The notes under the pieces are model-generated. The model saw nothing but the letters and a program-made list of their open reading frames with translations, had not been told where the DNA came from and did no database searches. Made by a program: the position numbers and the translations under genes. A stretch of 51,601 bases of DNA from Anaerolineaceae bacterium (GTDB taxonomy: Bacteria; Chloroflexota; Anaerolineae; Promineifilales; Promineifilaceae): positions 1 to 51,601 of the forward strand of contig PABI01000028.1 of the NCBI GenBank assembly GCA_002699125.1, in the 5' to 3' direction. Below, piece by piece: positions 2 through 51,052 of the stretch. Numbering within the stretch: position 1 is the first letter of the stretch; every line of letters begins with the position of its first letter.

Positions 2-229
2 GTCTTTTTGCGCCAGAAATTGTGGAACAGCAACCGGGAAACGTTTCGTGGGCAGTTTTTATCCAAAGATTCCTTATTTGTCTGGATTCACCGGACACAC
101 GGCCGTCGACGAAAAAAGTACACCACCCTCATGCAAGAAAACCCCTATCCTCATCTGACGTGGATTCACCACCAAACGCCCCGTAAAACAAGGCAGTGGC
201 TAAAGCAAATTTGTCAGAGACCTGGCTGA
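2..229 (+). CDS. Possible 3' end of an unrecognised gene (truncated by the window edge)
   Basis: One frame stays open from base 2 to a TGA at 227-229 (about 75 codons). The product would be very basic and rich in Trp, His and Arg, and I recognise no family. The other two forward frames close at about 160 and 185. The stretch carries one ACGGCCGT at 99-106. It lies directly upstream of a CdiI-like immunity gene in the same direction, so the end of a toxin-bearing protein would be the natural expectation. Nothing in the residues confirms that, and the stretch could be non-coding. Confidence 0.2.
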   Translation, partial: VFLRQKLWNSNRETFRGQFLSKDSLFVWIHRTHGRRRKKYTTLMQENPYPHLTWIHHQTPRKTRQWLKQICQRPG

Positions 230-256
230 ACCTTCCATCACATAAAGGCAAGAAAA

Positions 257-739
257 ATGGATGAAGCAAAATATTTCAAACACGCAAGTGCCTTTAAATA
301 TAACAAGCATTTTGTTATCACCAGCAACGCTAAAACAGAAAAAGCCATTTGGTATTTAAGCAAACCGATCAGACTTTTTACGGTTCATTCAAGTCCAGCA
401 GAAGTAGGAAATGTAGTCCTGACGAGTTTGGAAAGCAGCCAAACCCGCTTGCCAAACTCTCCTTCTCCAACAGATTTGAATCAGCTAATGAACGATCTCT
501 ACCAGATAGCTGGAGCGCCATCGCTTAACACGTTTTTGAAAGATGCGTTGCATTGTGGAATCGGCCGTTCGAATGAAGGAATTGAAATCTCACCAACACA
601 CAACTACGGTGTTGATCATGAGCCTGGTGGATTTGTGTTTAAATTTGAGAATCGAATATTAGTGGCAAATCCGACACCGGAGACATTAGGTCATGCTTTT
701 TTACAGGGATTCGCCGCGTGTACGTCAGTTTACCTGTGA
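257..739 (+). CDS. CdiI-like contact-dependent growth inhibition immunity protein (DUF1436 family)
   Basis: This 160-residue protein resembles the CdiI/DUF1436 immunity family, whose members bind and neutralise the C-terminal toxin of CdiA-type contact-dependent inhibition systems. Family-like features are an N-terminal beta-rich part with a 'SKPIRLFTVHSSPAEVGN' segment around residues 35-52, a central helical stretch, a conserved-looking 'EGIEISPTHN' around 107-116, and a closing 'NPTPETLGHAFLQGF' around 138-152. Length fits the family. The gene is clearly AT-richer than its neighbours and contains no ACGGCCGT, which suggests transfer. No complete toxin gene is visible; at most its 3' end could lie in bases 1-229. 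Assignment is by residue pattern only. Confidence 0.6.
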   Translation: MDEAKYFKHASAFKYNKHFVITSNAKTEKAIWYLSKPIRLFTVHSSPAEVGNVVLTSLESSQTRLPNSPSPTDLNQLMNDLYQIAGAPSLNTFLKDALHCGIGRSNEGIEISPTHNYGVDHEPGGFVFKFENRILVANPTPETLGHAFLQGFAACTSVYL

Positions 740-775
740 AATGCGCATCACCTCAATATTTCAGGATAGTGGTAG

Positions 776-1717
776 TTACTGGAGCAGCAACTTTTGGATG
801 TGGTTGCGGCACCAGTCGCGCCAATCATAATCGTTTTTGCTGTAGGCAACGGCCGTTAACGCCTTGATCATCTCAAACATTTCCAGTCGCTGCTTATCAA
901 CCACCCTGACATAACCCTCACAGAACGCCTCCCATCCCCCAGGCAATACCCGCAAATACCATGACAACAAGGCCAGATCATCTTCCGGCAGCCAGCCGCG
1001 GGCCAGCTCAAAGTCGAAGATGGCCAGGAATTGGATACGGCCGTCTCGCACACAAAAACGCACATTCCCGGCATGTAGATCAAAATGGGTTAATGTGGCT
1101 GGCTCCGTCTCGCCAATCAGCGGCAGGCGCTCTTCCAACCAGACAGTGATGTGCTTTGCCTCTACATCTGAGACATAGCCCAACGCCCCAACACGACTCA
1201 ACATATGCCGCGCTTCTTGCTGTGTGTACAAACGGGCATTATGCAGATGCGGGTTCGGGTGAGCACCGTCTAGAAGACAAAAACGAGGCAAGTCGATCTC
1301 ATGCAAACGTCGCACGGCTTTCCCGGCATTCACCAATGACCCCAACAAACCGGCTTCGGTCTCCGGCTGACTTCGTTGGTAGGCAAGCGGCATCGTAGGA
1401 ATGTCTGCCCCAACAGGAATAAAATCCGCCAAATTTAGCCCTGGCAAATAGCTCACGACGAGCAAGCCATCACCAACCTCCGGCAGCGACAGCAACAACT
1501 GGGGAACTGGTGCTGTGCCCAACTTTTGATGGATCAACCTCAGTGCCGCTTCTTCATTAGCAAAGCGAGACGGTTTACGCGCAAATCGCAAATACGCTTG
1601 TTGGGGTTCTCCCTCTTGAGGAAATAGTGTCACCAGACTGGGTTCCGAAGGGTCACGCACCAGGTCTCGATAACCCTGCGCACAAACAAGCGCCTTTAAC
1701 TCAGCTTCATCAACCAC
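776..1717 (-). CDS. Aminoglycoside phosphotransferase-family kinase (APH/choline kinase fold)
   Basis: A 313-residue cytoplasmic kinase of the APH superfamily (PF01636). The catalytic loop 'THFDLHAGNV' near residue 210 matches the H-x-D-x-H-x-x-N Brenner motif, and 'IFDFELARG' near 233 supplies the metal-binding Asp. The substrate cannot be read from sequence; the family includes aminoglycoside, homoserine, choline and macrolide kinases. The start is GTG at 1717-1715, preceded on the minus strand by GAGGA at suitable distance; an ATG just upstream is out of frame. It is the last gene of a minus-strand set with an ABC exporter and a 72-residue protein, with only about 41 bases between it and the preceding gene. 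Export plus kinase could suggest self-protection against a small molecule, but that is inference. Confidence 0.85.
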   Translation of the reverse strand: MVDEAELKALVCAQGYRDLVRDPSEPSLVTLFPQEGEPQQAYLRFARKPSRFANEEAALRLIHQKLGTAPVPQLLLSLPEVGDGLLVVSYLPGLNLADFIPVGADIPTMPLAYQRSQPETEAGLLGSLVNAGKAVRRLHEIDLPRFCLLDGAHPNPHLHNARLYTQQEARHMLSRVGALGYVSDVEAKHITVWLEERLPLIGETEPATLTHFDLHAGNVRFCVRDGRIQFLAIFDFELARGWLPEDDLALLSWYLRVLPGGWEAFCEGYVRVVDKQRLEMFEMIKALTAVAYSKNDYDWRDWCRNHIQKLLLQ

Positions 1718-1758: not shown

Positions 1759-1977
1759 CTATTGAACCGTGCCCATCTCATCGAGCTGAAGCGTTTCCTC
1801 GCCGTCCGTTGTTTGCAGGGTGAGCCGCCACGTTTTGAGTTCAAAGCGAAATTCTTGGAGCTCTTCCTGTTCGGTTTTAGCATTGTAGACAAGGTGACCC
1901 CAAACGGCCGTTTCATCTCGCCCTCTCAATCGCAAACTCGCCTCATGCCAGCGACAATAATAAACCAGTGGCTTCAT
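1759..1977 (-). CDS. Small unknown protein, translationally coupled to the ABC exporter
   Basis: A 72-residue protein I do not recognise. It has no membrane segment; it starts with '[19 protein letters not shown]' and looks like a small beta-rich domain with alternating hydrophobic and charged residues ('[17 protein letters not shown]'). Its ATG overlaps the stop codon of the ABC transporter gene as ATGA (1974-1977), a classic sign of translational coupling and the main reason to accept it as real. It contains one ACGGCCGT read as 'ETAV'. It lies between an exporter and an APH-like kinase, so it may be an accessory part of that unit. Confidence 0.65.
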
Positions 1978-3737
1978 GCTTCGATCGCCTCGTACTGCTC
2001 AAAGATGCGTCGATAGGCCAACGAACGGGTCATCAGCTCCTCATGCGTGCCGACGGCTTCCATCTGCCCCTTGCGCATTACCACCACCTTATCTGCCCAG
2101 CGAATCTGGGACAGCCGGTGGGTGATCAAAATGGTGGTCTGGTTGGCGGCGGCGCGTACAATCGCCTGCTGAATCTGGTCTTCCGTGGCGCTGTCTACCG
2201 CGCTGGTGGAATCATCCAAAATGAGGATGCGTGGTCGGGTGAGAAAAGCACGCGCCAGCGCCAGCCGCTGCCGCTGCCCGCCGGAAAGCGTCACGCCGCG
2301 CTCGCCAATCACCGTTTCATAGCCGTCCTTAAAGTTCAGGATGAAGTCGTGAGCCTGGGCTGCTTTGGCCGCCTCTTCGATCATCTCCTGCGTCGCGCCG
2401 GGGCAGCCAAAAGCAATGTTCTCCCCGACAGTGCGCGAAAAGAGGAAGACGTCTTGCTCAATAATAGAGATTTGCTGCCGCAAGGCCGCCAGGTTCCAGT
2501 CACGCACGTCGATGCCATCTAGGAGGAGACGGCCGTTTGTCACATCGTACGTCCGGTTAATCAGCTTGGCCAAGGTGCTTTTGCCCGATCCCGTCTGGCC
2601 CACAATGGCCACCGTCTGCCCTGGCTCAATGCTAAAATCAATGTCTTGCAGCACCGGCGACTCGGCTACATAGCCAAACGTCACGTTGTCAAATCGTACG
2701 GCGCCCTTAATTTGTGCCTGATGGCCCGCCACGTTTTCATCAAGCAGCGTTTCCCTATTCATCAATTCCAAAATGCGGCGCGCTCCGGCCAGGCCCAGCG
2801 AAACGCGCGAATAGGCCAGCAAGGAAATAAACGTGGGAAAACCAAACAGGGCCATCAGCCCCATGTAGCCCACCACGTCCCCCACGGCAATTTCGCCCAA
2901 CTGGAACAGATAGAGCGCGTGCATAAAGCCAATTCCCTGGGTAATGCCCAGCAGCAGCAGGGGCAAAAAGCGGGCTTCAATCTTGCCCTGCTCTACGGCC
3001 GCATCCCGGTAATCAGCGGCATTGTTGTTAAACAGGCCAATTTCCTGCACTTCCTGGGCCGTGCTTTTAACCAGCTCAATGCCGTCGATGGCTTCAGCGA
3101 GACGGCCGTTCATACTGCCAAACGCCTGCCTTACCCGGTCGGCCACCCCTTGCAGCACCTTCAAATAGCGGATCACCGCCAACACATACGTCACAATAAA
3201 AAACAATGGGGCTACTGCCAACTGTGGATGATAACTCGGGGCAACCAGCAGCGGCATAATCATAAAATTGGCCGAGCCAGCCACCAGATTCACCCCAGGA
3301 TTCATGAGCAAATTGACCTCATGGACATCATTTGTGGCGCGGGCCATCGTGTCACCCACAGGCTGCGAATCGTGGAAAGCCGTACTTTTGCCCAACAAAC
3401 TCACGTACAGTTCGTCCCGCATATCCCGCTCCAGCCGCTCGCCCATCACCGCGCTGGAAAAATTGCGCCCCAGCTGCAACACGGCCCGCACCGATTGGCT
3501 GATCACAACGCCAATGGCCATCCAGCCGATGGTGCCCAAATTGGCTGGCGTTTCTAAAGCCGCATCAAATGCCCTGCCGATGAGCACCGGCACCACCGCT
3601 GCCAGCGCGGCATTACCAAATGCCCCGATGAACATGCTTGCAATTAATAATTTATGATGAGAAAGATGGGATAAAACCCAGCGAGTAGTGGTACTTTTGT
3701 CAGTGTGGTGTGATCTATTAACGTCAAATTCACTCAA
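1974..3737 (-). CDS. ABC transporter, fused permease and ATP-binding protein (MsbA/MDR-type exporter half)
   Basis: This 587-residue protein has an N-terminal six-helix exporter domain (about residues 25-320) followed by a nucleotide-binding domain. Walker A is 'GQTGSGKST' near 377, the signature is '[15 protein letters not shown]' near 482, and Walker B is '[12 protein letters not shown]' near 505, followed by the switch His in 'ITHRLSQ'. It should act as a homo- or heterodimer in the cytoplasmic membrane exporting lipids, drugs or peptides; the substrate is unknown. The start appears to be TTG at 3737-3735, as no in-frame ATG lies near; an ATG a few bases upstream is out of frame. Its stop overlaps the next gene (ATGA). 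It is divergent from the adenylate-kinase-like gene. Confidence 0.9.
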
Positions 3738-4599: not shown

Positions 4600-5163
4600 C
4601 TAAATAAGCTGAGCCGAGTAACGCACAGTGTAAACAGCCCCAGACGGCCGTAACTCGCTCTGCACCAACTGAACGGCCGTTACCCCAAAATCCAGCTCCG
4701 CCAATACAACATCCCAATTGAGCGCCTGAACCTGCCGCGAATCCTTTACCCGCCCTAGCGTGACATGTGGACTAAACGGCCGTTTCTCCCGCGCCCAACC
4801 CAACTCAACGATACGATCTTCCAGCTCCACCTGCATCGCCTGCAACACGGCTAAATCCCCGTCCAGTCCGGCCCACACCACACGCGGCCGTTTGCGGCTG
4901 GGGAACGCCCCCACACCGTTCAAATGCAAACGAAAGGCTGAATGCTGGCTCGTAAGCTGGGCTAGTTGGTCTTGTAGGTCGGGGAGTTGGGCAACGGCCG
5001 TATCCCCCAAAAAGCGCAGCGTCAGGTGCAATTGTTCCGGTTTCACCCAGCGCACCGCTTTATGGGGCAGCCGCTGCCCCATTTTTGCTGCCGTCTCCAG
5101 CAGCACTTTCTTCACCGCTTCCGGTAAATCGATGGCAATGAACAAACGAATCTTTTCGTTCAT
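4600..5163 (-). CDS. thpR: RNA 2',3'-cyclic phosphodiesterase (2'-5' RNA ligase family)
   Basis: A 187-residue member of the 2H phosphoesterase superfamily. Both catalytic H-x-T motifs are present: 'LHLTLRF' with His46/Thr48 and 'PHVTLGR' with His133/Thr135. The spacing and length match bacterial ThpR/LigT, which opens 2',3'-cyclic phosphates on RNA and in vitro also ligates tRNA halves with a 2'-5' bond. The protein is soluble. The gene is dense in the ACGGCCGT octamer (four copies), so it belongs to the long-resident part of the genome. It is followed on the same strand by nothing close; the UbiA-like gene lies 47 bases upstream of it and may be cotranscribed. Confidence 0.88.
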   Translation of the reverse strand: MNEKIRLFIAIDLPEAVKKVLLETAAKMGQRLPHKAVRWVKPEQLHLTLRFLGDTAVAQLPDLQDQLAQLTSQHSAFRLHLNGVGAFPSRKRPRVVWAGLDGDLAVLQAMQVELEDRIVELGWAREKRPFSPHVTLGRVKDSRQVQALNWDVVLAELDFGVTAVQLVQSELRPSGAVYTVRYSAQLI

Positions 5164-5210: not shown

Positions 5211-6230
5211 TTATGATTTGCTCGGCTTGCTGGCGGACTGCCACTCCTGTTCAGCAAGCGAGTCAGCGGTGAAGAGCGGAAGCGCAAAGGCAAGAAGGAT
5301 AGTCCAGCGACTGAGGGGATCGATTTGGGGGAGAACGGCCGTAAACAGCAACAACAGCATTAAAATATTGTGCGCCATCAACCACGGCGTCATTTGCGCC
5401 AGGGGAATTTTAAACCGGGTCACTTGCCACAGATAGACAAAACAGACAATCGACAATAGTTGCAGCACAATATTTAAAACGACCGGATCTTCACCCGGAC
5501 CAAGCGGAAACTTGTCAATCACAGGCAAAATCAACGCCAAAGCGTTTAGGACAAGCTGCCAGAAGAGGGCGTATATTTGCAGGCGGGCAGGAATGTAGAA
5601 ACGGCCGTCTGGCAACGGCCGGGCCCTCAGCCAAATCGCCGTCGTTTGCGCCCCAAACGCGTAATCATTGGCCAAATCACGCAGGCTGCCGTTGATGCCG
5701 TTCACCAGCAAAATGTAGACAATGATAAATCCGGCCGCCACCCAGGTCTGCTCAGTTGGCTGCCCCACCACAGCAGCGCCAAACAGCAGCAGAGCCGCCC
5801 AGCTGGAACCCTGTACCAAATCGGTGAGCGGCGGCAGCGGGCTGCGCTTTCCCCCAAAATTGTAAATGGCCATTGCCACCACCGCCCAGCACAACCAGAG
5901 CAGGGAACGGCCGTTTCCACCCAATGCCCACCACAAAAGCAGCAAAATGGGCAGCTGCCCCACCACCCAGAACCTCACCTGCCGCACCGTCACCAGCTCT
6001 CGCACCAACGGATAATCGGCCCGCGATGGCTGAGTTTGGTCCAGCGGCAAATCAATGAGATCGTTGAGCAGATAAGCAAACAGGTGGAAGGAAACGGCCG
6101 TTGCCAGCAGCCCCCAAATTTGCCACCCTGTCACCACCCCGGCTGCTATTCCGGCACCAATGAGAGGCAGAACGGCCGTGTAGCCAAAAATCGCCGTATG
6201 CCCCAACCGAAACCAATCCCGCGCTTTCAT
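5211..6230 (-). CDS. UbiA-type prenyltransferase
   Basis: A 339-residue integral membrane protein with about eight to nine hydrophobic helices. The first Asp-rich motif is 'NDLIDLPLD' (Asn56, Asp57, Asp60, Asp64), followed by 'PSRADYPLVRE'. The second Asp-rich region is 'LRDLANDYAFGAQTT'. These are hallmarks of UbiA-superfamily enzymes, which transfer an isoprenoid diphosphate onto an aromatic or other acceptor. The acceptor cannot be told; menaquinone-, chlorophyll- or lipid-type roles are all possible. I choose ATG 6230-6228, because the upstream 19-codon extension would run through the rho-independent terminator of the preceding gene. TATAAT lies only 7 bases before this ATG on the minus strand, so a very short or leaderless transcript is conceivable. 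Confidence 0.8.
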   Translation of the reverse strand: MKARDWFRLGHTAIFGYTAVLPLIGAGIAAGVVTGWQIWGLLATAVSFHLFAYLLNDLIDLPLDQTQPSRADYPLVRELVTVRQVRFWVVGQLPILLLLWWALGGNGRSLLWLCWAVVAMAIYNFGGKRSPLPPLTDLVQGSSWAALLLFGAAVVGQPTEQTWVAAGFIIVYILLVNGINGSLRDLANDYAFGAQTTAIWLRARPLPDGRFYIPARLQIYALFWQLVLNALALILPVIDKFPLGPGEDPVVLNIVLQLLSIVCFVYLWQVTRFKIPLAQMTPWLMAHNILMLLLLFTAVLPQIDPLSRWTILLAFALPLFTADSLAEQEWQSASKPSKS

Positions 6231-6380: not shown

Positions 6381-7493
6381 TCAGGCCGACTGTACTCTGG
6401 GGAACAATTCCGGTCGCATGGCCGCCATGCGCAGCATCTGCCGAATGTGCCGGTTTGAGATGACGCCAACGATACGGCCGTATTCCACCACTGGCAGCGC
6501 GCTCAAGCCTTCATGGCTCATCCGCTGCTGCACGTCATATAAATCGGCCGTGGGCGAAACTGGCTCCACATCCTGAGCCATCGTCGCCGCCACCGTCTGG
6601 TTTGAACTGCCCTGCTGCAACGCCGCCATTAAGCGCTCGTTATCTAAAAAGCCCACGTAGCTATCAAACTGGGCAACCGGAAAGTCCGTTACGCCCCGCG
6701 CCATCCAGTTGGCCACATCGTGCAAGCTGTCATCCGGTCGCAAAATTGGTACCCGGTTGGAATAAGCTTGCTGCACCGTGTAGCCGCGCAGGCGCTGGCG
6801 AAACTTCACCATCTGCCCTTCCTGGGTCGCCCCGGAGAAGATAAAAATGGCGATGAGTACGCTAAAGAATTGGCCATTAAATAAACCATACAGACCAAAC
6901 AACACCGCCAAACCTCGCCCCAACGACACGGCGATGCTGGTCGCCCTACCATAATCCAGCTTCATAGCCAACGCCGAGCGCAAGACACGCCCCCCGTCCA
7001 TGGGAAAAGCCGGAATCATATTAAAGACGGCCAAAATGACGTTGTAGAAAAAGATATAAGAGAAAAGTGCGCCAAGCGTCAGCGAAATGCCGCTGGTGAG
7101 TGGATTGGTGAGGGATAGGCCAAACAGTACGGCCGTTCCGCCCATCAAAATAGCCAGGGCCACGTTCACTGCCGGTCCTGCCAGAGCAATGACAAATTCC
7201 TGTATCGGCTTGTCCGGCATGTTGCGCAGCTGAGCTACGCCACCAATCGGCAGCAAGACAATGCGCTCAACCGGCACGCCATAGTGCAGGGCGGCAAAGC
7301 TATGCCCTAGTTCATGCAGCGTTACCAGCACAAAAAGCAGCGAAATGGCAATGACACCAAACAGCGCCCCGGCCAGACCCCCACCGCCCAATACGCCAAA
7401 CTGAAACGCTGCCCAAACCAAAATCAAAGGGAATGTCAGGTGCAAACGAATATCAATTCCGCGTACAGAAAACAGTTTCAACGAGCTGTTCAT
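6381..7493 (-). CDS. Site-2 protease family (M50) membrane metalloprotease with C-terminal CBS pair
   Basis: A 370-residue intramembrane zinc protease of the SpoIVFB-like group. Zinc ligands are in 'TLHELGHSFAALHYG' (His60, Glu61, His64) and 'IPAFPMDGGRVLRS' (Asp166). The first 220 residues hold about six membrane helices. The C-terminal about 130 residues form two CBS repeats ('LRPDDSLHDVANWM...', 'VSPTADLYDVQQRM...'), which in this family bind adenine nucleotides and regulate proteolysis. The substrate is unknown; members cleave membrane-bound anti-sigma factors or precursor proteins. AAAGGAAG precedes the ATG at about 8 bases. It is followed by a long inverted repeat and a rho-independent terminator. 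Confidence 0.9.
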   Translation of the reverse strand: MNSSLKLFSVRGIDIRLHLTFPLILVWAAFQFGVLGGGGLAGALFGVIAISLLFVLVTLHELGHSFAALHYGVPVERIVLLPIGGVAQLRNMPDKPIQEFVIALAGPAVNVALAILMGGTAVLFGLSLTNPLTSGISLTLGALFSYIFFYNVILAVFNMIPAFPMDGGRVLRSALAMKLDYGRATSIAVSLGRGLAVLFGLYGLFNGQFFSVLIAIFIFSGATQEGQMVKFRQRLRGYTVQQAYSNRVPILRPDDSLHDVANWMARGVTDFPVAQFDSYVGFLDNERLMAALQQGSSNQTVAATMAQDVEPVSPTADLYDVQQRMSHEGLSALPVVEYGRIVGVISNRHIRQMLRMAAMRPELFPRVQSA

Positions 7494-8734: not shown

Positions 8735-9421
8735 ATGAATATGATCCGTTTTTTACAGGATATCCCGCTCTTTCAAGACCTCTCTGACCAGCAGCTGGCA
8801 TCAATTTCCCGGGATGTGCAGCCGCGCAAATTTGGCCAGGGAGAAATTATTTTCCGCGAAGGCGATCCGGGGCAGGTTGTGTACCTGGTGCAGTCTGGCC
8901 AGGTGCGGATTTACGTGAATGGATTGGATGGCAGCGAAACATCAGTGATTTTGTTTGGGCGGCCAGGCGATATGTTTGGCGAACTGGCGGTGATTGATGG
9001 CTTGCCCCGGTCGGCAACGGCCGTTGCCCTGGACGAAACCTTACTCTACACCATCAGCCGGGAAAGCTTCCGCCAGCACATGCAGCGCTTCCCCCAACTG
9101 GCGCTCAACTTTATGAAGGAGCTAACGCACCGGGTACGCTATAACACGCGGCAAATGGACAGTCTGGCTTCGCTGCCTGTGTCGCAGCGACTGGCACGCA
9201 AACTGCTGGAGCTGGCTCAGGATTACGGCCGTATCGAAGCCGACAACGTCATCATCGACATGACGCTCACCCAGACCAATCTGGCCAGCCTCATCGGCGC
9301 CACGAGAGAAAGCACCAATAAGATTTTACGCGACTTCCGTGAACGAACGTTGATTTGGTTTGAAAACGGCCGTATCACTATCCTGGATGCCGATGCCTTG
9401 CGTGCCGAAGTAACAGCATAA
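8735..9421 (+). CDS. Crp/Fnr family transcriptional regulator
   Basis: A 228-residue cytoplasmic regulator. Residues about 10-120 form a cyclic-nucleotide-binding domain ('GEIIFREGDPGQVVYLVQSG', then 'FGELAVIDGLPRSATAVAL'). The G-E-L ... R-S-A pattern is what cAMP-binding CRP proteins use to hold the phosphate. A dimerisation helix follows, then a C-terminal winged helix-turn-helix ('TLTQTNLASLIGATRESTNK'). No Cys cluster for an FNR iron-sulfur centre is present. I choose ATG 8735 with GGGAGG at 8721-8726; an in-frame ATG at 8678 would add 19 residues unlike the family. A TGTGA-N6-TCACA site lies upstream of the preceding gene. Confidence 0.9.
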   Translation: MNMIRFLQDIPLFQDLSDQQLASISRDVQPRKFGQGEIIFREGDPGQVVYLVQSGQVRIYVNGLDGSETSVILFGRPGDMFGELAVIDGLPRSATAVALDETLLYTISRESFRQHMQRFPQLALNFMKELTHRVRYNTRQMDSLASLPVSQRLARKLLELAQDYGRIEADNVIIDMTLTQTNLASLIGATRESTNKILRDFRERTLIWFENGRITILDADALRAEVTA

Positions 9422-10530: not shown

Positions 10531-10911
10531 TTGTTTTCTTTCCTCGTTCAAAATAATTTGTTTCACCCATTATTGTAAAAGCGGGACAGTTCTTAAACAC
10601 GAATGCTTGATTCGCCCGCTTTTACGTAGGTAATCGGCCCAATCGCCTTTTGGGTTTTACAAGAAGCTTTTTGCCGATTACGATAAAACCCCATTTTCGG
10701 CATGAAGCTGAAAATGGGGTTGAGACAGTCCATTTGTCAATTTTGGGCAAGTATAAAATAAAAAAATCGCGCTGTCTATACAATGGAGGACGAATCTTTG
10801 ATGATTTTATTGGAGAAACGGCCGTTTCTTCCCCACACATTCCAGCTTGAATGCGCCAGCCAAACTGCCTAAAATAACCTTCCAGCTTTTGCAAAAAGGA
10901 AACATACCTGA
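10531..10911. other. Intergenic region between divergent genes with a 12-bp hairpin
   Basis: This 381-base gap should hold the promoters of the ligase-like gene (minus) and the YceI gene (plus). AACCCCATTTTC (10687-10698) pairs perfectly with GAAAATGGGGTT (10710-10721) over 12 bp with an 11-base loop. On the minus strand the stem is followed by four T, but no minus-strand gene lies upstream for it to end. TATAAAAT at 10752-10759 is a -10-like element, but the only -35-like TTGTCA (10734-10739) is too close. One ACGGCCGT is present near 10820. I see no gene. Confidence 0.5.
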
Positions 10912-12180: not shown

Positions 12181-12220
12181 CATGTCAGTTTTTTATTGCA
12201 GCCAACTTTACGGTCATTTC

Positions 12221-38600: not shown

Positions 38601-38942
38601 CGCCAGTGATGCCTGGGTCAGCACAACCTGCATATTGGTGTCGGCGATCATAAACGCCAGGCGTTCTGAGGGCGCGTGGGGATCCAGAGAAACGTAGGCC
38701 CCACCTGCCTTGAGGATGCCCAGCAGCGCCCCCACCATCTCCCAGGAGCGTTCCAGGTAGATACCGACAAACGTTTCTGGCCCCACGCCGTGGCGGCGCA
38801 AAAAGTGGGCCAGCTGGTTGGCACGGTCGTTTAGTTCGGTAAAGGTTAGCACTACGTCTTCAAATACCAGCGCGGTAGCCTGAGGCGTTTTAGCTGCTTG
38901 ATCAGCAAATAAATCGTGCAGGCAGGAAGACGGCCGTTTCAA
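35652..38942 (-). CDS. NRPS module A(Asp)-PCP-E without condensation domain
   Basis: A 1096-residue module. It starts directly in an A domain ('[14 protein letters not shown]'); '[12 protein letters not shown]' is near 161 and '[10 protein letters not shown]' near 497. With the 'FAADLGNT' region aligned so that its Asp is position 235, the code is D-L-T-K-V-G-H-V-G-K, one change from the textbook Asp code. The carrier is '[10 protein letters not shown]' near 552. An epimerisation domain follows ('[12 protein letters not shown]' near 739, '[12 protein letters not shown]'), giving D-Asp. I choose TTG 38942-38940: GGAG precedes it, it overlaps the mbtH stop as TTGA, and upstream in-frame ATGs lie deep inside mbtH. 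Lacking a C domain, it can only start a chain or rely on a partner. Confidence 0.92.
36057..36093. repeat. Palindromic element embedded in the E domain reading frame
   Basis: CGCTGAGCGG, then TTCAACGAAGTTGAA, then CGAGTCGAAGCG. The arms CGCT...AGCG and TTCAAC/GTTGAA make it foldable. It is read as a Ser/Arg-rich insertion ('[14 protein letters not shown]') in the epimerisation domain. It resembles the widespread CTGAGCG...GTCGAAG class of dispersed bacterial repeats. Confidence 0.6.
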
Positions 38943-42100: not shown

Positions 42101-45100
42101 CCATACCGCCGGTAATAAGGTAGACGCCACCCTGCTTGATGCGGGAATCGGCCAGACTGCCTTCCGCCTGGGGAGCCGCCTCAAACTGCTGCTGCCAACG
42201 ACGGCCGTTGCGATAAGCAAACAAGCCATTCTGTGGCTCGGCCAACAAATCCGCTTTGATCAGCGTGGCCAATCCTTCGATTTGGTCGGCCATCAGGCTG
42301 GCAGGTAAAGCCAGATCCACCAGTCGCGCCGTCACGCCAGGGAATTCACGGGGCATCACTTTAACCGGACCGAGCAAGGTGGCTTTGTCCGGGTAGGGCA
42401 CCTGTTCATCATCGACGCGCTGGCTGCCGTTGGTAACGGCCGTTACATCCAGCGTCCCCGGCAAGCCTTCTTCACCCAACGCCTGCGCCAGGAAAAAGAG
42501 GCTGTAAAAACCCAAATCCTGATTCTGGTAATAAACGCGCATCCGATCTGGATTGTTTGGCTGGTTGAGCGTCCAAAAATGAGCCACGCGCTGGGGCAGC
42601 AGGGAACGCCCCGCCAGTTCCTCTACCAGCGTGTCGTAATCGATCCGGGCACGAGGATTGACCTCGTAAGCAAATTCACTCAATTGGCGGAACTGCTCAC
42701 CCACCGACACGGTGACGACACTGTGCCCGGCACTTTGCAGCTGCGTCTGCACCTGCTCGCCCACGCCTAGCTTATCCTTGAACAGCAGCCAGGTGAGCGG
42801 CTCAACAACGGCCGTTGCCGGCTTGTCGGTAAGCTGCCAGGTGCGCTTGTAGAACCAATCTTCCAGCTCCGGCATCTTGGCCAGAACGGTTTTAGTCACC
42901 TCCGCGCCGCTAAACAGCGTTGTGCCCGGCTCGATCCAGTGGCGCTGCCGCTCAAAGGGATAAGTAGGCAGCGGCACGCGGTAGCGCAGTTCATCGGCAT
43001 AAAAAGCAGTCCAGTCGGGCATCACTCCTACCAGCCAGAGGCGGCCCAGGCTGGTGAGGGCAAATTGCAGGTCAGCCAGCTCTTCTTTGCGGTGGCGCAA
43101 GGAAGAAACGGCCGTATGCGACTTATCCTTTTCCGGATGCATGCGCACCAGCGAGCTGAGCGTCTGGCCCGGACCCACTTCCAAAAAGACCCGGTTGGGC
43201 TCTTGTAGCAGCGTCGACAGGCCATCGGCAAAGCGCACCGTGTGTCGCAGGTGGCGCACCCAATATTGCGGGTCCGTTGCTTCTTCCGGTTTAATCCAGG
43301 CCCCGGTCAGGTTAGAAATAAAGGGCATCGTTGGCGGATTGAACTGGATTTTAGCCAGTTCACGGCCAAATTCATCCAGGATCGGTTCCAACATGGGCGA
43401 ATGGGCAGCCACGTTGATGCGCACCCGGCGGCACTCCACCTCTTTTTCGGCCAGCGCTGCTTCCAATTTTTCCAATGCGGCTACGTCACCGGACACCACA
43501 CACAGTTCCGGGTTGTTGATGACGGCGATGGAGAGGCCTTCACTGAGGTAAGGCTGCAACGCCTCCTCAGTCAACGGCACGCTGACCATGCCACCTTCGG
43601 GCAGCGTCTCAAACAGCTTGCCGCGCAGGGTGACGATGAAGAGCGCATCCTTCAGCGACAGCACGCCAGCCAGGCAGGCGGCGGTATATTCGCCCATGCT
43701 GTGCCCGGTCATGGCCGCCGGTTCTATGCCCCAGGAACGCCACAGTTGGGCCAGGGCGTATTCGGTCATGAAAATGGCGGGCAGGTTGCGCGACGGCCGT
43801 TTCAATTCCTCGGCCGCATTCTCCAAAGTTTCGTCTGTAGGGAACATGAGTTGGCGCAGATCGGTATTGAGATACGGCCGTACCAAATCCAGGCACTCAT
43901 CAATTACCTCGCGGTAAACGGGTTCCGCTTCGTACAGCCCCAGCCCCATGTTGGGGTACTGCGCCCCTCCGCCGGGGAACATAAACACAACCGACGGCTC
44001 AGCATCACTCGCCTGCTGGCTGATGACCCGCTGGCGATTGCCGCTGGTCAAGGCTTCGGCGGCATCGGCGGCATCTTGCACCGCCACGATGCGGCGGTAG
44101 GGCATCGGCTGGCGGCCGACTTGCAGCGTGTAAGCAACGTCAGCCAGCGACACGTCCGGATTTTCTTGCAGGAAGGTAGCCAAATTTTGGCTGGCCGCAT
44201 CCAGCGCCGAACTGGTCTTGGCTGAAAGCTGCAACAACTGCCAGTCGCGGGAGTCGCTCGATGGCTCCAGCTCTGGCGCTTCTTCGACAACAACGTGAGC
44301 GTTCGTACCCCCCACCCCTAGCGAGCTAATGCCCGCCCGGCGCGGCGACTCATCCTGCGGCCACTCCCGCAGTTCGTGGTTGACAAAAAACGGGCTGTCC
44401 TCCAGGTTGAGCATCGGGTTGGGCGCTTTGTAATTCAAACTCGCTGGAATTTGCTTGTGCTTTAGGGATTGGACTACTTTGATGAAGGCAGCGACGCCTG
44501 CGGCCGTATCCAAATGGCCAATGTTTGTTTTCACCGACCCCAGGCCACTAAACTGCTTCTTGTCCGTCGTTTGGCGAAACGCCTGCGTCAGCGCCGTCAC
44601 TTCGATGGGGTCGCCGATGCGGGTGCCGGTGCCGTGGGCTTCTACGTAATCAATCGTGTCGGCGTCGATATTTGCCAGGGCGATTGCCTCGGCAATGGCG
44701 CTGGCCTGACCATCCACGCTGGGCGCCAGATAGTTGACCTTGCCGGAGCCGTCGTTGTTAACGGCCGAACCGCGAATGATGGCATGAATGGTGTCGCCAT
44801 CCTCAATCGCATCCGCCAGGCGGCGCAGCGTCACGACGCCCACGCCGCTGCCAAAAATGGTGCCGTCAGAATCAGCATCAAAACTGCGGCAGTGGCCATC
44901 GGAGGAGAGAATTTCGCCATCCTGGAACAAGTAACCCTGCCGGTGCGGCATTTCAATCGTAACACCACCGGCCAGCGCCATGTCACATTCGCCGCTGAGC
45001 AAGCTTTGTGAAGCCATGTGGATGGCCACCAAGGAAGTAGAACACGCCGTTTGCACATTCACGCTGGGGCCGCGCAGGTTCATCAAGTAAGAGACGCGGG

Positions 45101-45866: not shown

Positions 45867-48800
45867 TTAACGAACCCGCTGCCGTCTTTGGCGACGCTGC
45901 ATCATCGCTTCACGTCGATTTGCGGCGCGGTCTACGCTTTGTTCTACGGCCGTTTGCGTTCCGTTTTCGCTGTCTTCGTTCAGGTAATCAGCCAGCGAGC
46001 GAATGGTGGGGAAACGGAACATGTCGGTAATCGAGATTTCCTTGTCCACCACCTCTTTAAGCTGGCGATGGGCCTGCACCGTCAGCAGCGAATGGCCGCC
46101 CAGGTCGAAGAAGTTATCGTTGAGGCCAACCTGGGGTATGTTGAGCAGCCGCTGCCAGATTTCAGCAATGGTTTGTTCCAGATCGTTGGTCGGGGCCACG
46201 TAAGCGGTTTGCGACTCGACGAGGACCTGGTCCGGTGCGGGCAGCGCCTTGCGGTCGGTCTTTTTGTTGGGCGTCAGCGGGAAGCTGGTCATGGGCACGT
46301 AGGTAGCGGGCACCATGAATTCTGGCAGGTCGGCGCGCAGGGCTTCCTTGAGTGCCGCCGCATCCAGCTTCTGCCCCGACTGCGTGATGACGTAAGCCAC
46401 CAGCCGCTTGTCACCGGGTGTGTCTTCGCGGGCCACAACCACGGCTTCGCGTACAGATTCTTGCGCGTTGAGCAGCGCTTCAATCTCACCCAGCTCGATA
46501 CGGTAGCCGCGCAGCTTCACCTGGAAGTCAGCCCGACCCAGGAAGTCAATGTTGCCATCGGCACGATAGCGGGCCAGATCGCCCGTAGCGTACATGCGCG
46601 CTTTTGGCTCGTTACGGAATGGGTCCCGCACAAAGCGCTCAGCAGTCAATTCTGGGCGGTTGTGGTAACCACGCACCACGCCATCGCCACCGATGTAGAG
46701 ATCACCAGCCACGCCAACGGGAACGGGCTGCATTTGGGCATCCAAGATGTAGATTTGGGTGTTGGCGATGGGTGTGCCGATGGGTACGGCCGTTTCCGCT
46801 CCCGTCACCGCATAAGTGGAAGACCAGATGGTGGTTTCCGTGGGACCATACATGTTGATCACCCGGCCCGGCACAATTTGCTTGAGCTGCTGCGCCAGGG
46901 CAGCGGGCAGCGCCTCACCACCGACCATCACGGTTGGCACCTGGCCCAGGGCGGCGGCATTACGCTCGTCCATGAGCAGCATGCTGGCCATGGAAGGTGT
47001 GCATTGGAAATGGGTTACGCTGTGCCGCTCGATCTGGGCCGGAATCGAGAAATCTTCGGTGGCCAGCTTCGGTTCAGCCAGCCGCTTTAACTCGCTCAGG
47101 TGCTCCAGATGGGTCAGTGCCAGCGCCGACGGGACGCCAAAGTCAATCAGACAGGCGATGTCGTCTACGTCAGTTTCTTTCAGCTTGTTAACCATGTGCA
47201 GCGCCGAGCGCGGCGTACCGAACAGACCACTGGTCTCGAAGTAGCGTTCGAAGGCAAAGTTGAGCAGTGCATCTACGTCTTCTGGCGTCAAATCCTCTTC
47301 ATCGAAGATTTCAAACGGGCTTTTACCGGTTTCTTCAGCCTTTTGTTTGAACGTGGGGAAGTGCCAGGCAGCGGCACGCACCAGACTCATAGAGCTGCTG
47401 AGGTATTGCTTCATTGGTTCGCGGACAATTTCGCGTACTTCGTCCACATCGTCGCCGATGAAGGTGTGCAGCATGAGCGAGACAATTCCCTTGCCGGGGT
47501 GGCCGGCCGCTTCGTATGCTTCGCGATAAACACGGATTTTTTCCGACAGCTCTTCAACGCTTTGGCCCAGCAGATGGGTGAGGATGTTGTAGCCATTGGC
47601 CCCGGCTTCGCGGAACGTTTCCGGGTTACCGGCGGCCGTTACCCAAATGGGCAACTCTTTTTGCACCGGATGGGGCAATGTTTTGACCTCTACATCCTTG
47701 CCCAAATCATTTTTCATGGTGATGGAACCACCGCGCCATAGTTCTTTCACAACCTCAATGTCGCGGAACATGATTTCTTTGCGGTCGGCGTAGACGCCGG
47801 GGCGCAGGACAAAGTCGTTGGGCTGCCAGCCGGAGGCAATAGAAAGGCCAACACGGCCGTTGGAAATATTGTCCACCACCGACCATTCTTCGGCCACGCG
47901 GATGGGGCTGTGCAGGGGCAGCACGCAGCTGCCGGAGCGAATCTGCACGTTTTCGGTGATGGCCGCGATGGCCGCACCGGTTACGGATGGATTGGGGTAC
48001 AGGCCGCCAAAGGCGTGGAAGTGGCGCTCGGGCGTCCACACGGCCGAAAAGCCATGCTTGTCGCCAAATTTGGCCCCTTCCAGCAGCAGGTGATATTTGT
48101 TGGTCACTCCCTCTTCGCTTTCATCACTGGAGAAATAGAAGAGGCTGAAGTCGATCTGTTTGTCATTTTTGGGCGGTTCGGGAACGGCCGTTACATCCTC
48201 GCGCGTCTTGTCATCAAAAATCACGACCTTGAAGCCCCGCGCCAGCGTCCAGAACAGTTCCAAAACGGAAATATCAAAGGAAGTGCTGGTAACGGCCAGC
48301 CAGGTGCCAGGTGGATCGTGTGAAATTCTTTCGTCCATACCCACGAAGAAGTTGACCACGTTGCCGTGCTGCACCATGACGCCCTTGGGCTTGCCGGTGG
48401 AGCCGGACGTGTAAATGACGTAGGCCAGATTGTGCGGTTCAACGCCGCTGAAGACGTTCTCGCCGCTCTGCTCGGCAATCTGCTCCCAATCGGCATCGAC
48501 GCGGACCACCTGCGCCTGGTGCGGCGGCAGGCTGGCAACGAGATGCTTTTGCGTCAGCAGCACCGGCGTGGCGGTATCTTCCACCATAAAAGCCAGACGG
48601 TCTTTGGGATAGGTCGGGTCCAGCGGCAGATACGCTCCGCCCGCTTTGTGGATGCCTACCAGGGCGACCATCATCTCGATGGAGCGATCCATAAAAACGC
48701 CCACGATCGTTTCCGGGCCGACGCCCAAATGGCGCAGATGGCGGGCCATCTGGTTGGCGCGGTGGTTAAGCTGGCGGTAGGTGAGCTGTTGGTCTTCGTA

Positions 48801-50570
48801 AACCACAGCCACCTCATGCGGCCGTTCATCGGCCTGGGCTTCGATGAGCTGGTGGATGCAAACGGCCGTATCGTAAGCAACGGCCGTATCGTTCCAATCA
48901 ACCAGCAGTTTCTGAATCTCTGTTTCGCTGAGGAAGGCAGTTTCTGCCAGGGCACGCTCGCCATTTTGGGCAGCGTTTTGCAGGAAGGTGGCAAACTGGG
49001 TTTGCATGGCGGCGATGATGTCTGGGGTGTAAACGGCCGTGTCGTACACCCAGGTCACGCGCGATTGATCCGGCGTGAGCAGCAGCGCCAACTCCGTTCC
49101 GGCTAGCGGCGTAAAGTTGCTGGCGGAAGCAGCCGACTGCACCAGGACCGGCAGCAAAGCGCCATCCAGTTTGGGGCGTAAGGCTTCCAAATCGGGCTGG
49201 CGCAGGAAGATGTCGCGGTTGAACGTTTGGCGCTTGCTTTGCAGCGTTTCTAAATCGGCTTGCAGCGCGGCGAGCGTGTCGGCTACGCTGGCGCTGCCGT
49301 CGGTGTTGACCTGGAAGGGCACCTGGGTGGCAAAGTAGTTGGTGAAACGGCCAACCTCATCGGCCAGGGAAGGCAGGCTGAGAGCGATGTCGAAGCTGCT
49401 GCTGCCGCTGAGGCGGGCCAGGTAAGCAGTGAAAGCGGCCGTCAGCGCGTGGGCCTCGCCAGAAACGCCGGCGGGCAGCGGCATGGTGGCCGTTTCATAA
49501 TTTTGGCCAATGGTGGTGCTGCTGTGGTCAGCGTAGGGCAGCTCCACGGCGCGCATCTGGCTCAGGCGGCGCAGCCAGTAGCCTTCCTGCCGCACGATGG
49601 TGTCGTTGAGGGCAGTAAGGTCGGCAATGGTGGCGGCGTCCAGGCTGGGCAGCTGCTGGTTGACGCTGAATTCTGTGGGGGAAACGGCCGTGCCGTCCAG
49701 CGTTTGCAAGCCAGAAAGCACAATCGAGCCGTTGGCGGTGGCGACGGTGAGTGATTCTTCGTCTACTGAAATGATTGTGCCGGGAGCAGCCTGCCCTGAG
49801 CTTGCCGAAGGGGCTGTCGTGGCGTCGCCTTGCTTTGCTGCGTTGATGGTGAGGAGACGGCCGTTTACGTTCAATTTGGGCAGCGCCAGTGGATTGGCAT
49901 AGCCACCAAATTGCAGGGCATTCACAAGAGCGACCAACTTGTCTGCCGGCTGCGTCCAATCCAGCGTGGCGGCAGCGGCGGGACGGTCATATTTGCCAAA
50001 GTAGGTTTGCTCCGCCAAATTTTGCGAACGGGGCTGCAAGCTGTTGTTCTCAATGCCTGCCACCAGCTCGGTGAAGGTGGCGATGCCTGCTTCGTACGCT
50101 TTCACATTCAGCGTGAAGGCAGTTTCACCCTCAGCAATGTCGAACAGCTGCTGCACAAGGATATCGCCTTTATCGACACCGCTGCGCATCTCATGCCAGG
50201 TCACACCGTGCTGGGCTGCCTGGTGCAGCAGCGCCCAAGAAGTAGCGTACAGGCCGGCAAATTTGGGCAGCGGGCCATCATGGAAATTGATCGCGCCACG
50301 CTGCGGCAACGCTAAAATGGCATCGGGGATAATTCTGAGATTGGTGATGCTCAGGAAATAGTCGAAGGGTGGCTGCTGGGCCAGCGTTTCAGACAAGCTT
50401 TTGCCCGGGGCCAAAATGGACAGTTCTTTCTGGGCCGCCCAGTTGGTGATGGCCGGTGATTGGGTAATCACACCACGCACATCGTGTCCTCGTTCAAGCA
50501 ATATTTCGGTGCATTGAATGAGTAAAGATTCTTCTCCCATCACATAACAACTAAACAAAGTGCCGCTCAT
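45867..50570 (-). CDS. NRPS loading module: formyltransferase - partial C - A (Gly-like) with inserted luciferase-like monooxygenase - PCP
   Basis: A 1567-residue protein. Residues 1-205 are a formyltransferase ('INFHDGPLPKFAG' with Asn95 and His97; 'GVDKGDIL' with Asp133), followed by an FMT C-terminal-like part to about 295. Residues 320-560 resemble the C-terminal lobe of a condensation domain with no HHxxxDG. The A domain (565-795 and 1180-1445) has 'YTSGSTGKPKGV' and code D-I-L-Q-M-G-M-I-W-K, near the Gly code D-I-L-Q-L-G-L-I-W-K. Between its A4 and A5 motifs sits a flavin-dependent luciferase-like monooxygenase (803-1165; 'FSAVWTPERHFHAFGG', 'GRVGLSIASGWQPNDF'), the type seen in MupA and Atu3671. 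The PCP has Ser1494 ('DLGGHSLL'). The Arg-rich tail may dock to the PKS. Formyl-glycine is the likely starter; the oxidation product is unknown. Confidence 0.92.
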   Translation of the reverse strand: MSGTLFSCYVMGEESLLIQCTEILLERGHDVRGVITQSPAITNWAAQKELSILAPGKSLSETLAQQPPFDYFLSITNLRIIPDAILALPQRGAINFHDGPLPKFAGLYATSWALLHQAAQHGVTWHEMRSGVDKGDILVQQLFDIAEGETAFTLNVKAYEAGIATFTELVAGIENNSLQPRSQNLAEQTYFGKYDRPAAAATLDWTQPADKLVALVNALQFGGYANPLALPKLNVNGRLLTINAAKQGDATTAPSASSGQAAPGTIISVDEESLTVATANGSIVLSGLQTLDGTAVSPTEFSVNQQLPSLDAATIADLTALNDTIVRQEGYWLRRLSQMRAVELPYADHSSTTIGQNYETATMPLPAGVSGEAHALTAAFTAYLARLSGSSSFDIALSLPSLADEVGRFTNYFATQVPFQVNTDGSASVADTLAALQADLETLQSKRQTFNRDIFLRQPDLEALRPKLDGALLPVLVQSAASASNFTPLAGTELALLLTPDQSRVTWVYDTAVYTPDIIAAMQTQFATFLQNAAQNGERALAETAFLSETEIQKLLVDWNDTAVAYDTAVCIHQLIEAQADERPHEVAVVYEDQQLTYRQLNHRANQMARHLRHLGVGPETIVGVFMDRSIEMMVALVGIHKAGGAYLPLDPTYPKDRLAFMVEDTATPVLLTQKHLVASLPPHQAQVVRVDADWEQIAEQSGENVFSGVEPHNLAYVIYTSGSTGKPKGVMVQHGNVVNFFVGMDERISHDPPGTWLAVTSTSFDISVLELFWTLARGFKVVIFDDKTREDVTAVPEPPKNDKQIDFSLFYFSSDESEEGVTNKYHLLLEGAKFGDKHGFSAVWTPERHFHAFGGLYPNPSVTGAAIAAITENVQIRSGSCVLPLHSPIRVAEEWSVVDNISNGRVGLSIASGWQPNDFVLRPGVYADRKEIMFRDIEVVKELWRGGSITMKNDLGKDVEVKTLPHPVQKELPIWVTAAGNPETFREAGANGYNILTHLLGQSVEELSEKIRVYREAYEAAGHPGKGIVSLMLHTFIGDDVDEVREIVREPMKQYLSSSMSLVRAAAWHFPTFKQKAEETGKSPFEIFDEEDLTPEDVDALLNFAFERYFETSGLFGTPRSALHMVNKLKETDVDDIACLIDFGVPSALALTHLEHLSELKRLAEPKLATEDFSIPAQIERHSVTHFQCTPSMASMLLMDERNAAALGQVPTVMVGGEALPAALAQQLKQIVPGRVINMYGPTETTIWSSTYAVTGAETAVPIGTPIANTQIYILDAQMQPVPVGVAGDLYIGGDGVVRGYHNRPELTAERFVRDPFRNEPKARMYATGDLARYRADGNIDFLGRADFQVKLRGYRIELGEIEALLNAQESVREAVVVAREDTPGDKRLVAYVITQSGQKLDAAALKEALRADLPEFMVPATYVPMTSFPLTPNKKTDRKALPAPDQVLVESQTAYVAPTNDLEQTIAEIWQRLLNIPQVGLNDNFFDLGGHSLLTVQAHRQLKEVVDKEISITDMFRFPTIRSLADYLNEDSENGTQTAVEQSVDRAANRREAMMQRRQRRQRVR
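49791..49815. repeat. Dispersed palindromic repeat in the formyltransferase linker
   Basis: CTGCCCTGAG followed by CTTGCCGAAGGGGCTG matches the common bacterial dispersed repeat with CCCTGAG...CGAAGGG arms. It is read in frame as 'PSASSGQAA' near residues 254-262, in the linker after the formyltransferase-like C-terminal part, where it does not disturb the fold. Confidence 0.7.
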
Positions 50571-50625
50571 AAAAAATACCTACCTACGTTAATTGGTTTG
50601 TGTCAATAAACACAGCCTGACACCT
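50571..50625 (-). promoter_or_regulatory. Candidate promoter and inverted repeat of the biosynthetic operon
   Basis: On the minus strand TTGACA (50606-50601) lies upstream of the FT-NRPS start; the best -10 at 17-18 bases is poor (TAGGTA). GTGTCA and TGACAC form an inverted repeat around 12 bases (about 50599-50622), overlapping the -35. A second AGG-rich stretch before the ATG may serve as ribosome site. This is the only gap over 400 bases upstream of the cluster, so the main promoter should lie here. Confidence 0.35.
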
Positions 50626-51052
50626 TTTTGCTTGGTTACAAAAAGCTCGTGCAGGCCACAAATCTTTTTTCTAAACTAGTTGGCGAGGTTCACAATCATC
50701 AGGGGAATAGTGGCAAGAATGGTCATCTGGCTGAGTTTGAATGATCTCTTGCCAGTTGGCAACGATGTGTTTTTAAGGGTGCGTCTTCCTGATGTTAACC
50801 ATTGCATTACCTGGGCAAAAAATCTTTGAATTCTACCCACTTTTTTAGCTGAGCATTCTTACGATTAGCCTTTCACGAGGACAGGGGATGGGGGTTGCCT
50901 TACGCTGGATTTTTTTTGGGGGGAGTGGGGCACGGCCGTTTACAATAACATAAAGAAACGGCCGTCTCACATATTTTTGGTGGACGGCCGTTTTCCCACA
51001 ATTGTCATGCGAACCGGTGAAAAACAGTCAAAGGGCCTGACACATTAGCACT
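50626..51052. other. Intergenic region with three octamer copies
   Basis: The stretch between the biosynthetic operon and the next minus-strand gene holds no gene I can support. Its left two-thirds has no recognisable structure apart from a T8G7-type run near 50910. The right third carries three ACGGCCGT copies within 60 bases (50932-50939, 50957-50964, 50984-50991). TGACAC-type words recur near 51040. Confidence 0.6.
50956..50993 (-). terminator. Terminator-like hairpin built from two ACGGCCGT copies
   Basis: On the minus strand AAACGGCCGTC (50993-50983) pairs perfectly with GACGGCCGTTT (50966-50956) over 11 bp around a 16-base loop, followed by CTTTATGTT. It is about 60 bases downstream of the stop of the 133-residue membrane protein gene and could end its transcript. 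Confidence 0.5.

Follow-up and report, generated by a model that had tools for sequence, protein, structure and literature searches.

Highly iterated palindromes (HIPs) of cyanobacteria are the closest described counterpart of the element analyzed here, the palindromic octamer ACGGCCGT in a 51,601-base stretch of Chloroflexota DNA. According to the available part of Elhai (2015; PMC4390886), HIPs occur at about 500-2500 copies per Mb, and a cognate enzyme is reported for every genome with HIP sequences. The stretch, hereafter the window, is contig PABI01000028.1 of assembly GCA_002699125.1 (Anaerolineaceae bacterium), positions 1 to 51,601 of the forward strand. Its source genome, G000, comprises 8.05 Mb in 188 contigs. 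We propose, with a probability of about 0.55, that one Chloroflexota family has ACGGCCGT as its highly iterated palindrome, held at fixed positions by selection for sites that a putative CGGCCG-reading protein would need. The main new result is positional: in the stretches compared, the sites stay put while the surrounding DNA changes.

The octamer works like HIP1 (GCGATCGC) in the four respects tested, as far as HIP1 is described in the accessible part of Elhai (2015; PMC4390886). Both are palindromic, GC-rich octamers and the most over-represented ones; the density of ACGGCCGT (1,480 per Mb in G000 and as high as 2,100 in G004) lies within the HIP range and is like the 1000-2000 per Mb of HIP1; in one-off copies the mismatch falls mostly on position 1 or 8; and other palindromes (TCGGCCGA, GCGGCCGC, and TGCCGGCA) are found in some relatives. 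It fails the literal HIP1 sequence, of which the window has 0 copies. The core is CGGCCG here and CGATCG in HIP1, the phylum is Chloroflexota, the outer position prefers A, T, or G or has no preferred base, and for ACGGCCGT no searched methyltransferase family is present throughout.

GGCC methylation by M.Ssp6803II in Synechocystis is tied to replication, repair, and DNA stability in the part of the source available (PMC6560206), and its frequent site has the GGCC centre in common with ACGGCCGT. In contrast, the GGCC class is not enriched here: G000 has a depletion of GGGCCC, as have several relatives, and TGGCCA is depleted in several relatives. No M.Ssp6803II orthologue was identified. DNA uptake sequences of Neisseriaceae and Pasteurellaceae are short words at about 1 per kb and, unlike ACGGCCGT, are not palindromic. 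In a literature search outside which most subscription papers lay, no paper was found on ACGGCCGT as a genomic word and none was recognized on HIPs in Chloroflexota; the string does occur in an unrelated data-encryption paper. To our knowledge, the function of HIP1 in cyanobacteria is so far open.

Copy number of the octamer in the window and genome

The window contained 91 exact copies of ACGGCCGT, the first at 99 and the last ending at 50991, in agreement with the roughly 90 copies of the original prediction, which was made from the letters of the window. Markov models gave expectations of 1.1 (order 0), 0.9 (order 1), 2.1 (order 2), 3.6 (order 3), and 8.3 (order 4) copies; the single copy previously expected is thus right at orders 0 and 1 and too low at orders 3 and 4. 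No more than 3 copies appeared in any of 200 simulated order-1 windows. Shuffling of synonymous codons in the 28 window genes, a null that preserves every protein and the codon usage, yielded a mean of 10.1 coding copies (maximum 19 in 200 shuffles) compared with the 85 seen, and the same shuffle of a 397-kb sample of G000 yielded 47.1 compared with 465. The octamer was the top one by count in the window and the most over-represented in both the window and the sample. The whole genome had 11,907 copies versus 403 for the same letters reversed. Because of the genome count and the Markov and codon-shuffle results, neither a normal frequency outside the window nor an origin in codon and dinucleotide bias, the two outcomes named earlier as refuting, holds.

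Coding copies in the sample were distributed over the three frames as 241, 152, and 72 of 465; every frame was used, as had been claimed, but unevenly. The stamping of proteins claimed earlier was borne out by the coding copies, in the form of TAV, GR, and RP words. Density was similar between genes (1.02 per kb) and within them (1.32 per kb) in the 397-kb sample. No helical phasing of the copies was seen (0.042 vs. about 0.059 by chance), and pairs less than 50 bp apart were found at about half the random expectation in the sample (3.5% vs. 7.6%).

The copies lie at the following positions, with no strand assigned to any of them: 99..106, 849..856, 1037..1044, 1904..1911, 2529..2536, 3102..3109, 4644..4651, 4673..4680, 4776..4783, 4994..5001, 5335..5342, 5601..5608, 5907..5914, 6094..6101, 6172..6179, 6474..6481, 7129..7136, 9017..9024, 9225..9232, 9366..9373, 10818..10825, 11054..11061, 11456..11463, 13361..13368, 13448..13455, 13941..13948, 14638..14645, 15582..15589, 16182..16189, 16785..16792, 16935..16942, 17103..17110, 19860..19867, 21327..21334, 21942..21949, 22404..22411, and 23233..23240 (37 copies in 1-24000); and 24460..24467, 24527..24534, 24985..24992, 25666..25673, 26176..26183, 26274..26281, 26372..26379, 26631..26638, 27168..27175, 27543..27550, 27817..27824, 28596..28603, 28698..28705, 28920..28927, 30163..30170, 30838..30845, 30904..30911, 31428..31435, 31591..31598, 32119..32126, 32185..32192, 32576..32583, 32830..32837, 34246..34253, 35012..35019, 36229..36236, 36829..36836, 36936..36943, 38320..38327, 38569..38576, 38930..38937, 39577..39584, 40522..40529, 40620..40627, 40674..40681, 41061..41068, 42201..42208, 42436..42443, 42808..42815, 43108..43115, 43793..43800, 43874..43881, 45946..45953, 46786..46793, 47853..47860, 48184..48191, 48862..48869, 48880..48887, 49033..49040, 49684..49691, 49857..49864, 50932..50939, 50958..50965, and 50984..50991 (54 copies in 24001-51601).

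When 23 stretches of G000 were counted, 17 carried 1.17-2.07 copies per kb and six carried at most 0.30. Four of the poor stretches (L108, L109, L119, and L120, on contigs C20, C40, C150, and C160; 49 kb), with 0-1 copies and without an excess of CGGCCG, are perhaps foreign or contaminating contigs in the bin, whose contamination rating is 8.39%; the octamer could help clean such bins. The other two (L101 and L102; C51:1-20000 and C51:40001-60000) had a GC content of 0.40-0.46 and 0.25-0.30 copies per kb, and L103 and L104, beside this low-GC part of C51, were normal (1.35-1.55 per kb). The low-GC part is probably acquired DNA, and the sole PF00145 match of G000 lies at C51:21701-22774.

Positional conservation of the copies

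Between G000 and G003 (43.8 kb aligned, 83.1% identity), 58 of 62 copies (94%) were identical, compared with 25.6% of 1146 octamers of the same composition and 25.7% of all octamers (Fisher p ~4e-28, calculated on overlapping octamers that are not independent). In the reverse direction, 58 of 64 copies were kept. Comparison of G000 with G002 (78.9% identity) showed 39 of 42 copies kept, and that of G002 with G003 (78.6%) showed 37 of 47, with 37 of 43 in reverse. In genus g22 at 74% identity, 31 of 47 copies were kept versus a fraction of 0.10 for controls. Over 30 ordered pairs from six g22 genomes, which share genomes and are not independent, 81-98% of copies were kept at 84-94% identity (controls, 34-69%) and 56-86% at 73-76% identity (controls, 10-15%). 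The 15 bases on either side of the copies were conserved like the average (0.827 vs. 0.831).

Across genera, 443 of 672 copies were kept at a mean of 73% identity (controls, 13%), 67 of 174 at 67% (9%), 91 of 655 at 62% (5%), and 37 of 420 at 58% (2%), counts that include copies counted in several pairs and are inflated by nonribosomal peptide synthetase (NRPS) paralogues and repeated pairs. Identities above 75% formed a bin that was left out, L208 being the record behind G024; by coordinates, L251 and L216 are the own records of G033 and G016 and not extra cases. In each of four comparisons, ACGGCCGT ranked first in conservation among the octamers that were frequent enough (21, 19, 45, and 16, respectively; the third and fourth comparisons have data in common).

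Synonymous codons inside the copies were nearly frozen. For codons lying wholly inside copies, the same codon was used in 95.7% of cases where the residue was the same (n = 116), versus 63.6% elsewhere (n = 13,286). CGT was kept in 20/20 cases inside copies and 47/128 elsewhere, CCG in 13/13 and 110/264, ACG in 22/25 and 115/221, and GCC in 22/25 and 346/566, respectively. In rpoB, the octamer was present at column 1015 in 18 of 19 ACGGCCGT-type genomes versus 3 of 10 others (Fisher p 5e-4), at column 1084 in 16 of 19 versus 0 of 10 (p 1e-5), at column 125 in 10 of 13 versus 0 of 3, and at column 3164 in 15 of 18 versus 0 of 10; these columns were chosen because most genomes share the octamer there, and the positional p-values ignore relatedness. 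At columns 1015, 1084, and 125, either every row had the same residues or 3 rows deviated. At two of the places the protein is mostly YGR, and the GGC-CGT spelling was found in 18/19 and 16/19 ACGGCCGT-type genomes versus 3/10 and 0/10 others. This is the pattern that a DNA-level constraint tied to the system should produce.

The positional conservation indicates that sites are maintained one by one, which rules out an epiphenomenon of composition. Because of this conservation and the near-frozen codons, composition and protein constraint fail as explanations; what is needed is selection acting on individual sites or a restoring process of equal specificity. Neither the positional conservation nor the different outer bases of the relatives had been foreseen in the original prediction.

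Core, outer bases, and flanks

The CGGCCG core is guarded in G000. Seven of the nine one-mismatch variants that break the core were below the order-1 expectation, and two of the three outer-base variants were enriched 3- to 6-fold at orders 1 and 2: GCGGCCGT with 109 copies (expected, 22.3 at order 1 and 36.0 at order 2) and TCGGCCGT with 78 (13.7 and 23.2). The third, CCGGCCGT, with 27 copies (17.4 and 34.7), was enriched at order 1 only. Between relatives, the single-mismatch differences listed were outer-base changes and C-to-T or G-to-A transitions, and the remaining lost copies differed at two to five bases.

The window has 25 copies in the flanked form AACGGCCGTT and 5 as AAACGGCCGTTT. 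Symmetric flank pairs numbered 179 compared with 194 expected under independence, and a ten-base palindrome was rejected; what had been taken for flanks extending the palindrome is an A/T preference acting on each side independently.

Distribution among relatives

The excess is family-wide, and the claim of a HIP1-like, genome-wide word outside cyanobacteria is borne out by the counts in the genome and its relatives. All 52 family genomes were counted, and 30 had at least 0.4 copies of ACGGCCGT per kb, the densest being G004 (2.10 per kb). In a survey of relatives, each of 24 genomes outside the family had at most 287 copies. A scan of named genomes with the zinc-ribbon protein of G002, a member of the same genus as G000, described below, matched the records of G002 itself (100%) and G003 (an uncultured Anaerolineae, 83%) and returned further octamer-rich records under the titles Chloroflexi, Chloroflexota, Anaerolineae, Anaerolinea sp. 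CH6, and Ardenticatenaceae. The host is accordingly an uncultured member of class Anaerolineae.

Different outer base pairs were found in stretches fetched from relatives with low counts. The word was TCGGCCGA in G009 (99 in 80 kb vs. 5.3 expected) and G033 (96 in 80 kb vs. 3.5), GCGGCCGC in G016 (126 in 80 kb vs. 6.7), and TGCCGGCA in G013 (34 in 33 kb vs. 2.6). The CGGCCG core is common to G009, G033, and G016; G013, a genome 62% complete, has another core. In G011, G022, G023, and G029, each covered by a short sample, no octamer stood out clearly. Six genomes, G019 and those of genus g5, favour the bare CGGCCG hexamer with nearly free flanks, at 5.1 per kb in G019 and 3.0-3.5 per kb in g5; the A...T octamer makes up 3-15% of copies in these six. 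No excess of CGGCCG over GCCGGC was found in G011, G013, G023, and G029. Three sister-family genomes had a milder excess of CCGGCCGG. An rpoB tree covering 30 genomes placed its 19 ACGGCCGT genomes in a group of 21, together with G023 and one g4 genome (support 93/97, under the tool's star), and the other word forms fell outside this group.

GCCGGC and CGCCGGCG were in excess in the uncultured Dehalococcoidia and Anaerolineae records L236, L238, and L248 (e.g., GCCGGC 117 vs. 43 in L248), which may point to a further iterated word in this phylum.

Search for a reader protein

Many of the genomes are incomplete (62-100%), so single absences are weak. PF00145 and PF01555 were searched in 59 relatives, with the 17 family genomes G059-G075 outside that search. 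Matches to PF00145 (5-methylcytosine methyltransferases) were found in 22 of the 59, and the family was rejected as the general cause, since G003, G004, G012, G020, G021, G025, and G031, among others, bear the octamer without a match. PF01555 matched in 56 of the 59 without a consistent member; the matches in G003, G005, G021, and G032 were weak or partial, and some were the zinc-ribbon protein. A GGCC-recognizing enzyme falls in PF02086 according to the available part of Elhai (2015; PMC4390886). PF02086 matched in 42 of 52 family genomes, and G061, G012, and most of genus g5 had weak matches or none; in G061 (15,176 copies, rated 100% complete) the matches were weak, with a best value of 2.7e-4. 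The two members read, at C181:10353-11063 of G000 (L471) and on C257 of G014 (L472), are Dam-type adenine methylases (TIGR00571), the latter matching DNA adenine methylase structures at E ~1e-88. Dam is not the cognate enzyme because GATC is absent from ACGGCCGT. A GGCC-type enzyme among the other PF02086 members is possible. At E <=0.001, G007 (94% complete, CGGCCG at 3.46 per kb) had no match to PF00145, PF01555, PF02086, or the zinc-ribbon protein. The methyltransferase target suggested earlier is therefore possible, but no searched family occurs throughout the octamer genomes, and the orphan methyltransferase was not established. Vsr endonuclease was found in 8 of 52 family genomes and not in G000. 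Repair by Vsr was rejected on this distribution, and the repair bias of the original prediction fares no better in this form, with the central C-to-T near miss as the least depleted core-breaking variant.

A zinc-ribbon methylase of about 660 residues emerged from the PF01555 search. Of the 52 family genomes, 40 had all or part of it; in G000 its gene is split over two contig ends. The protein scored 15.4 bits against PF06634 (DUF1156), under the cut-off of 24, and has S-adenosylmethionine-binding and (D)PPY motifs in a class I methylase fold (model mean pLDDT, the predicted local distance difference test, 86.6; pTM, the predicted template modeling score, 0.89). Its presence did not track high ACGGCCGT (26/30 vs. 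14/22, p 0.09) or core excess (p 0.37). Of the 31 genomes in which a CGGCCG-core octamer was defined, 29 had the protein, and of the 6 with only the hexamer, none did, a post hoc comparison that rests on two genera; G013, with the other core, also lacked it. The methylase is kept as a lead only because of this lack of tracking, the distant carriers without excess, and its tRNA-methylase-like model.

Mobile elements and other features of the window

Some loci from IMG/VR carry phage or plasmid genes. L363 and L415 belong to one 100-kb IMG/VR contig, and L397, L351, and L393 are further mobile-element loci, with densities up to 3.7 per kb among the matches listed. L393 (1.6 ACGGCCGT per kb) carries a 604-residue PF00145 methylase.

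An NRPS cluster occupies 24932-50570 of the window on the minus strand, with condensation, AMP-binding, PP-binding, and thioesterase domains in the scanned open reading frames (ORFs) and a Bac_luciferase domain within a 1567-residue ORF. Palindrome density in the cluster was no lower than elsewhere (54 vs. 37 copies in the two window parts given above). Mrp/Mnh-type antiporter genes lie at 12182-16955 on the plus strand, where MbhD, MbhE, and MnhB domains are fused in one 986-residue ORF. Several hexamers were strongly depleted in the 397-kb sample: GGCGCC (56 vs. 238), CTGCAG (29 vs. 164), GGGCCC (25 vs. 146), and GCATGC (39 vs. 151). The hexamers avoided by relatives differ in part from those of G000.

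Discussion

Under the proposal that selection holds ACGGCCGT at fixed positions, a protein reading the CGGCCG core would need the sites, and mutants losing sites would be selected against. A single trans-acting factor would recognize CGGCCG on both strands, lineages would differ in how it contacts the outer base pair, and selection would be the keeper of the sites. As a guess at the job, the sites may mark the chromosome along its length, on average about every 630 bp and possibly in methylated form; repair, replication, or DNA protection could, for instance, use such a mark to identify a strand or "self" DNA. The segregation signal suggested in the original prediction is possible in a distributed form; a signal confined to one region does not agree with the similar density on many contigs (17/23 stretches).

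Several observations weigh against this proposal. No reader protein was identified, and no searched enzyme family occurs throughout the octamer genomes. Conservation between species by itself fits purifying selection and site-specific restoring or repair alike, and about 12,000 separately selected sites are a heavy demand. Genera g9, g20, and g4 and genome G023 of the same family have few or no sites; therefore, this type of cell can live without them. Within G000, six of 23 stretches are nearly free of the octamer, and its spacing is irregular (coefficient of variation 1.19), which argues against a simple ruler. The core-breaking variants ATGGCCGT (1.09) and ACGACCGT (1.67), the latter a transition at the centre of the word, exceed the order-1 expectation. 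In comparisons between lineages with different octamers, 17 of 67 distinct ACGGCCGT sites kept the core at identities of at least 65%, and 0 of 67 carried the octamer of the other lineage; at 50-65% identity, 11 of 158 distinct sites did, and these face just 3 target sites, all at zinc-ribbon methylase loci. At one column of the zinc-ribbon gene, nine g1 and g22 genomes have ACGGCCGT (NGR) and G016 has GCGGCCGC (RGR). The ACGGCCGT-type genome G025 also has GCGGCCGC there, so this in-place change of the outer base is an anecdote and no proof.

One rival explanation is a methylation-linked ratchet of the kind proposed by Elhai, in which a methyltransferase marks the core and methyl-directed mismatch repair makes and protects the octamer without selection. 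The deviations at positions 1 and 8 (a HIP1-like signature in the available part of Elhai, 2015; PMC4390886) and the alternate palindromes in relatives are in its favour, and protection from change would also produce conserved positions. However, the model as given in that part accounts for the outer base by a G that must precede the methylated C, and it is not transferable as it stands because the outer base here is A, T, G, or free. The candidate methyltransferase families are not found throughout, as in G007 with its dense CGGCCG, and the entire octamer is kept, including the outer A:T pair, beyond what deamination repair does. We consider the ratchet unlikely. Codon, dinucleotide, or protein-level bias, to which the uneven coding frames might point, has a negligible chance of being the cause: it was rejected by the Markov expectations and codon shuffles, the intergenic copies have a similar density, and most HIP-poor genomes encode identical rpoB peptides with no octamer.

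That the zinc-ribbon, DUF1156-like predicted methylase is itself the reader, modifying CGGCCG and specifying the outer base pair, is quite doubtful. Its spread over 40 of 52 family genomes and the post hoc contrast with hexamer-only genomes are consistent with this role, and in G003, which lacks PF00145, it is the best PF01555 match. Its neighbours, one for each of five loci, were a cytochrome P450, a major facilitator superfamily protein, an AlaX-like protein, MoxR, and an immunoglobulin-domain protein, with no restriction enzyme. The DNA methylase CcrM was among the weak Foldseek matches (E 0.003); the closest likeness of the model, by a narrow margin, is to tRNA N2-methylguanosine methylases, which lowers the DNA-methylase reading, and distant carriers show no CGGCCG excess. 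Still more improbable is a self-recognition or defence mark, in which copies shield DNA from a host nuclease and resident chromosomes and mobile elements accumulate them. The IMG/VR loci L351, L359, L397, and L363, at 2.98 to 3.72 per kb among the matches listed, exceed the densest family genome, and some loci carry replication, partition, or FtsK-like genes. However, the loci were found through a paired-copy pattern and are a biased sample, 49 of 80 among the matches listed were below 0.5 per kb, L363 looks like a plasmid (ParA, FtsK, RadC), no nuclease was identified, and the low-GC part of C51 persists at its low density in the two stretches read. The IMG/VR loci show only that mobile DNA can carry the word densely, and such density argues against a restriction target that these elements avoid.

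The data point to a separate case of HIPs in another phylum, where relatives with the octamer, another octamer, a hexamer, or nothing turn the matter into a comparative problem: the feature common to HIP-positive genomes and missing in the others should be the reader. As a DNA-level signal, the octamer distorts codon usage in these genomes and any motif searches or selection tests run on them. A bolder form of the proposal, put forward tentatively and rated slightly short of an even chance, is that this Chloroflexota family has its own genome-wide address code of about 12,000 CGGCCG-centred sites, each under purifying selection that freezes codons and residues, with a putative reader whose outer base (A, T, G, or none) is specific to the genus. 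If this is true, whole genomes would carry different versions of the code.

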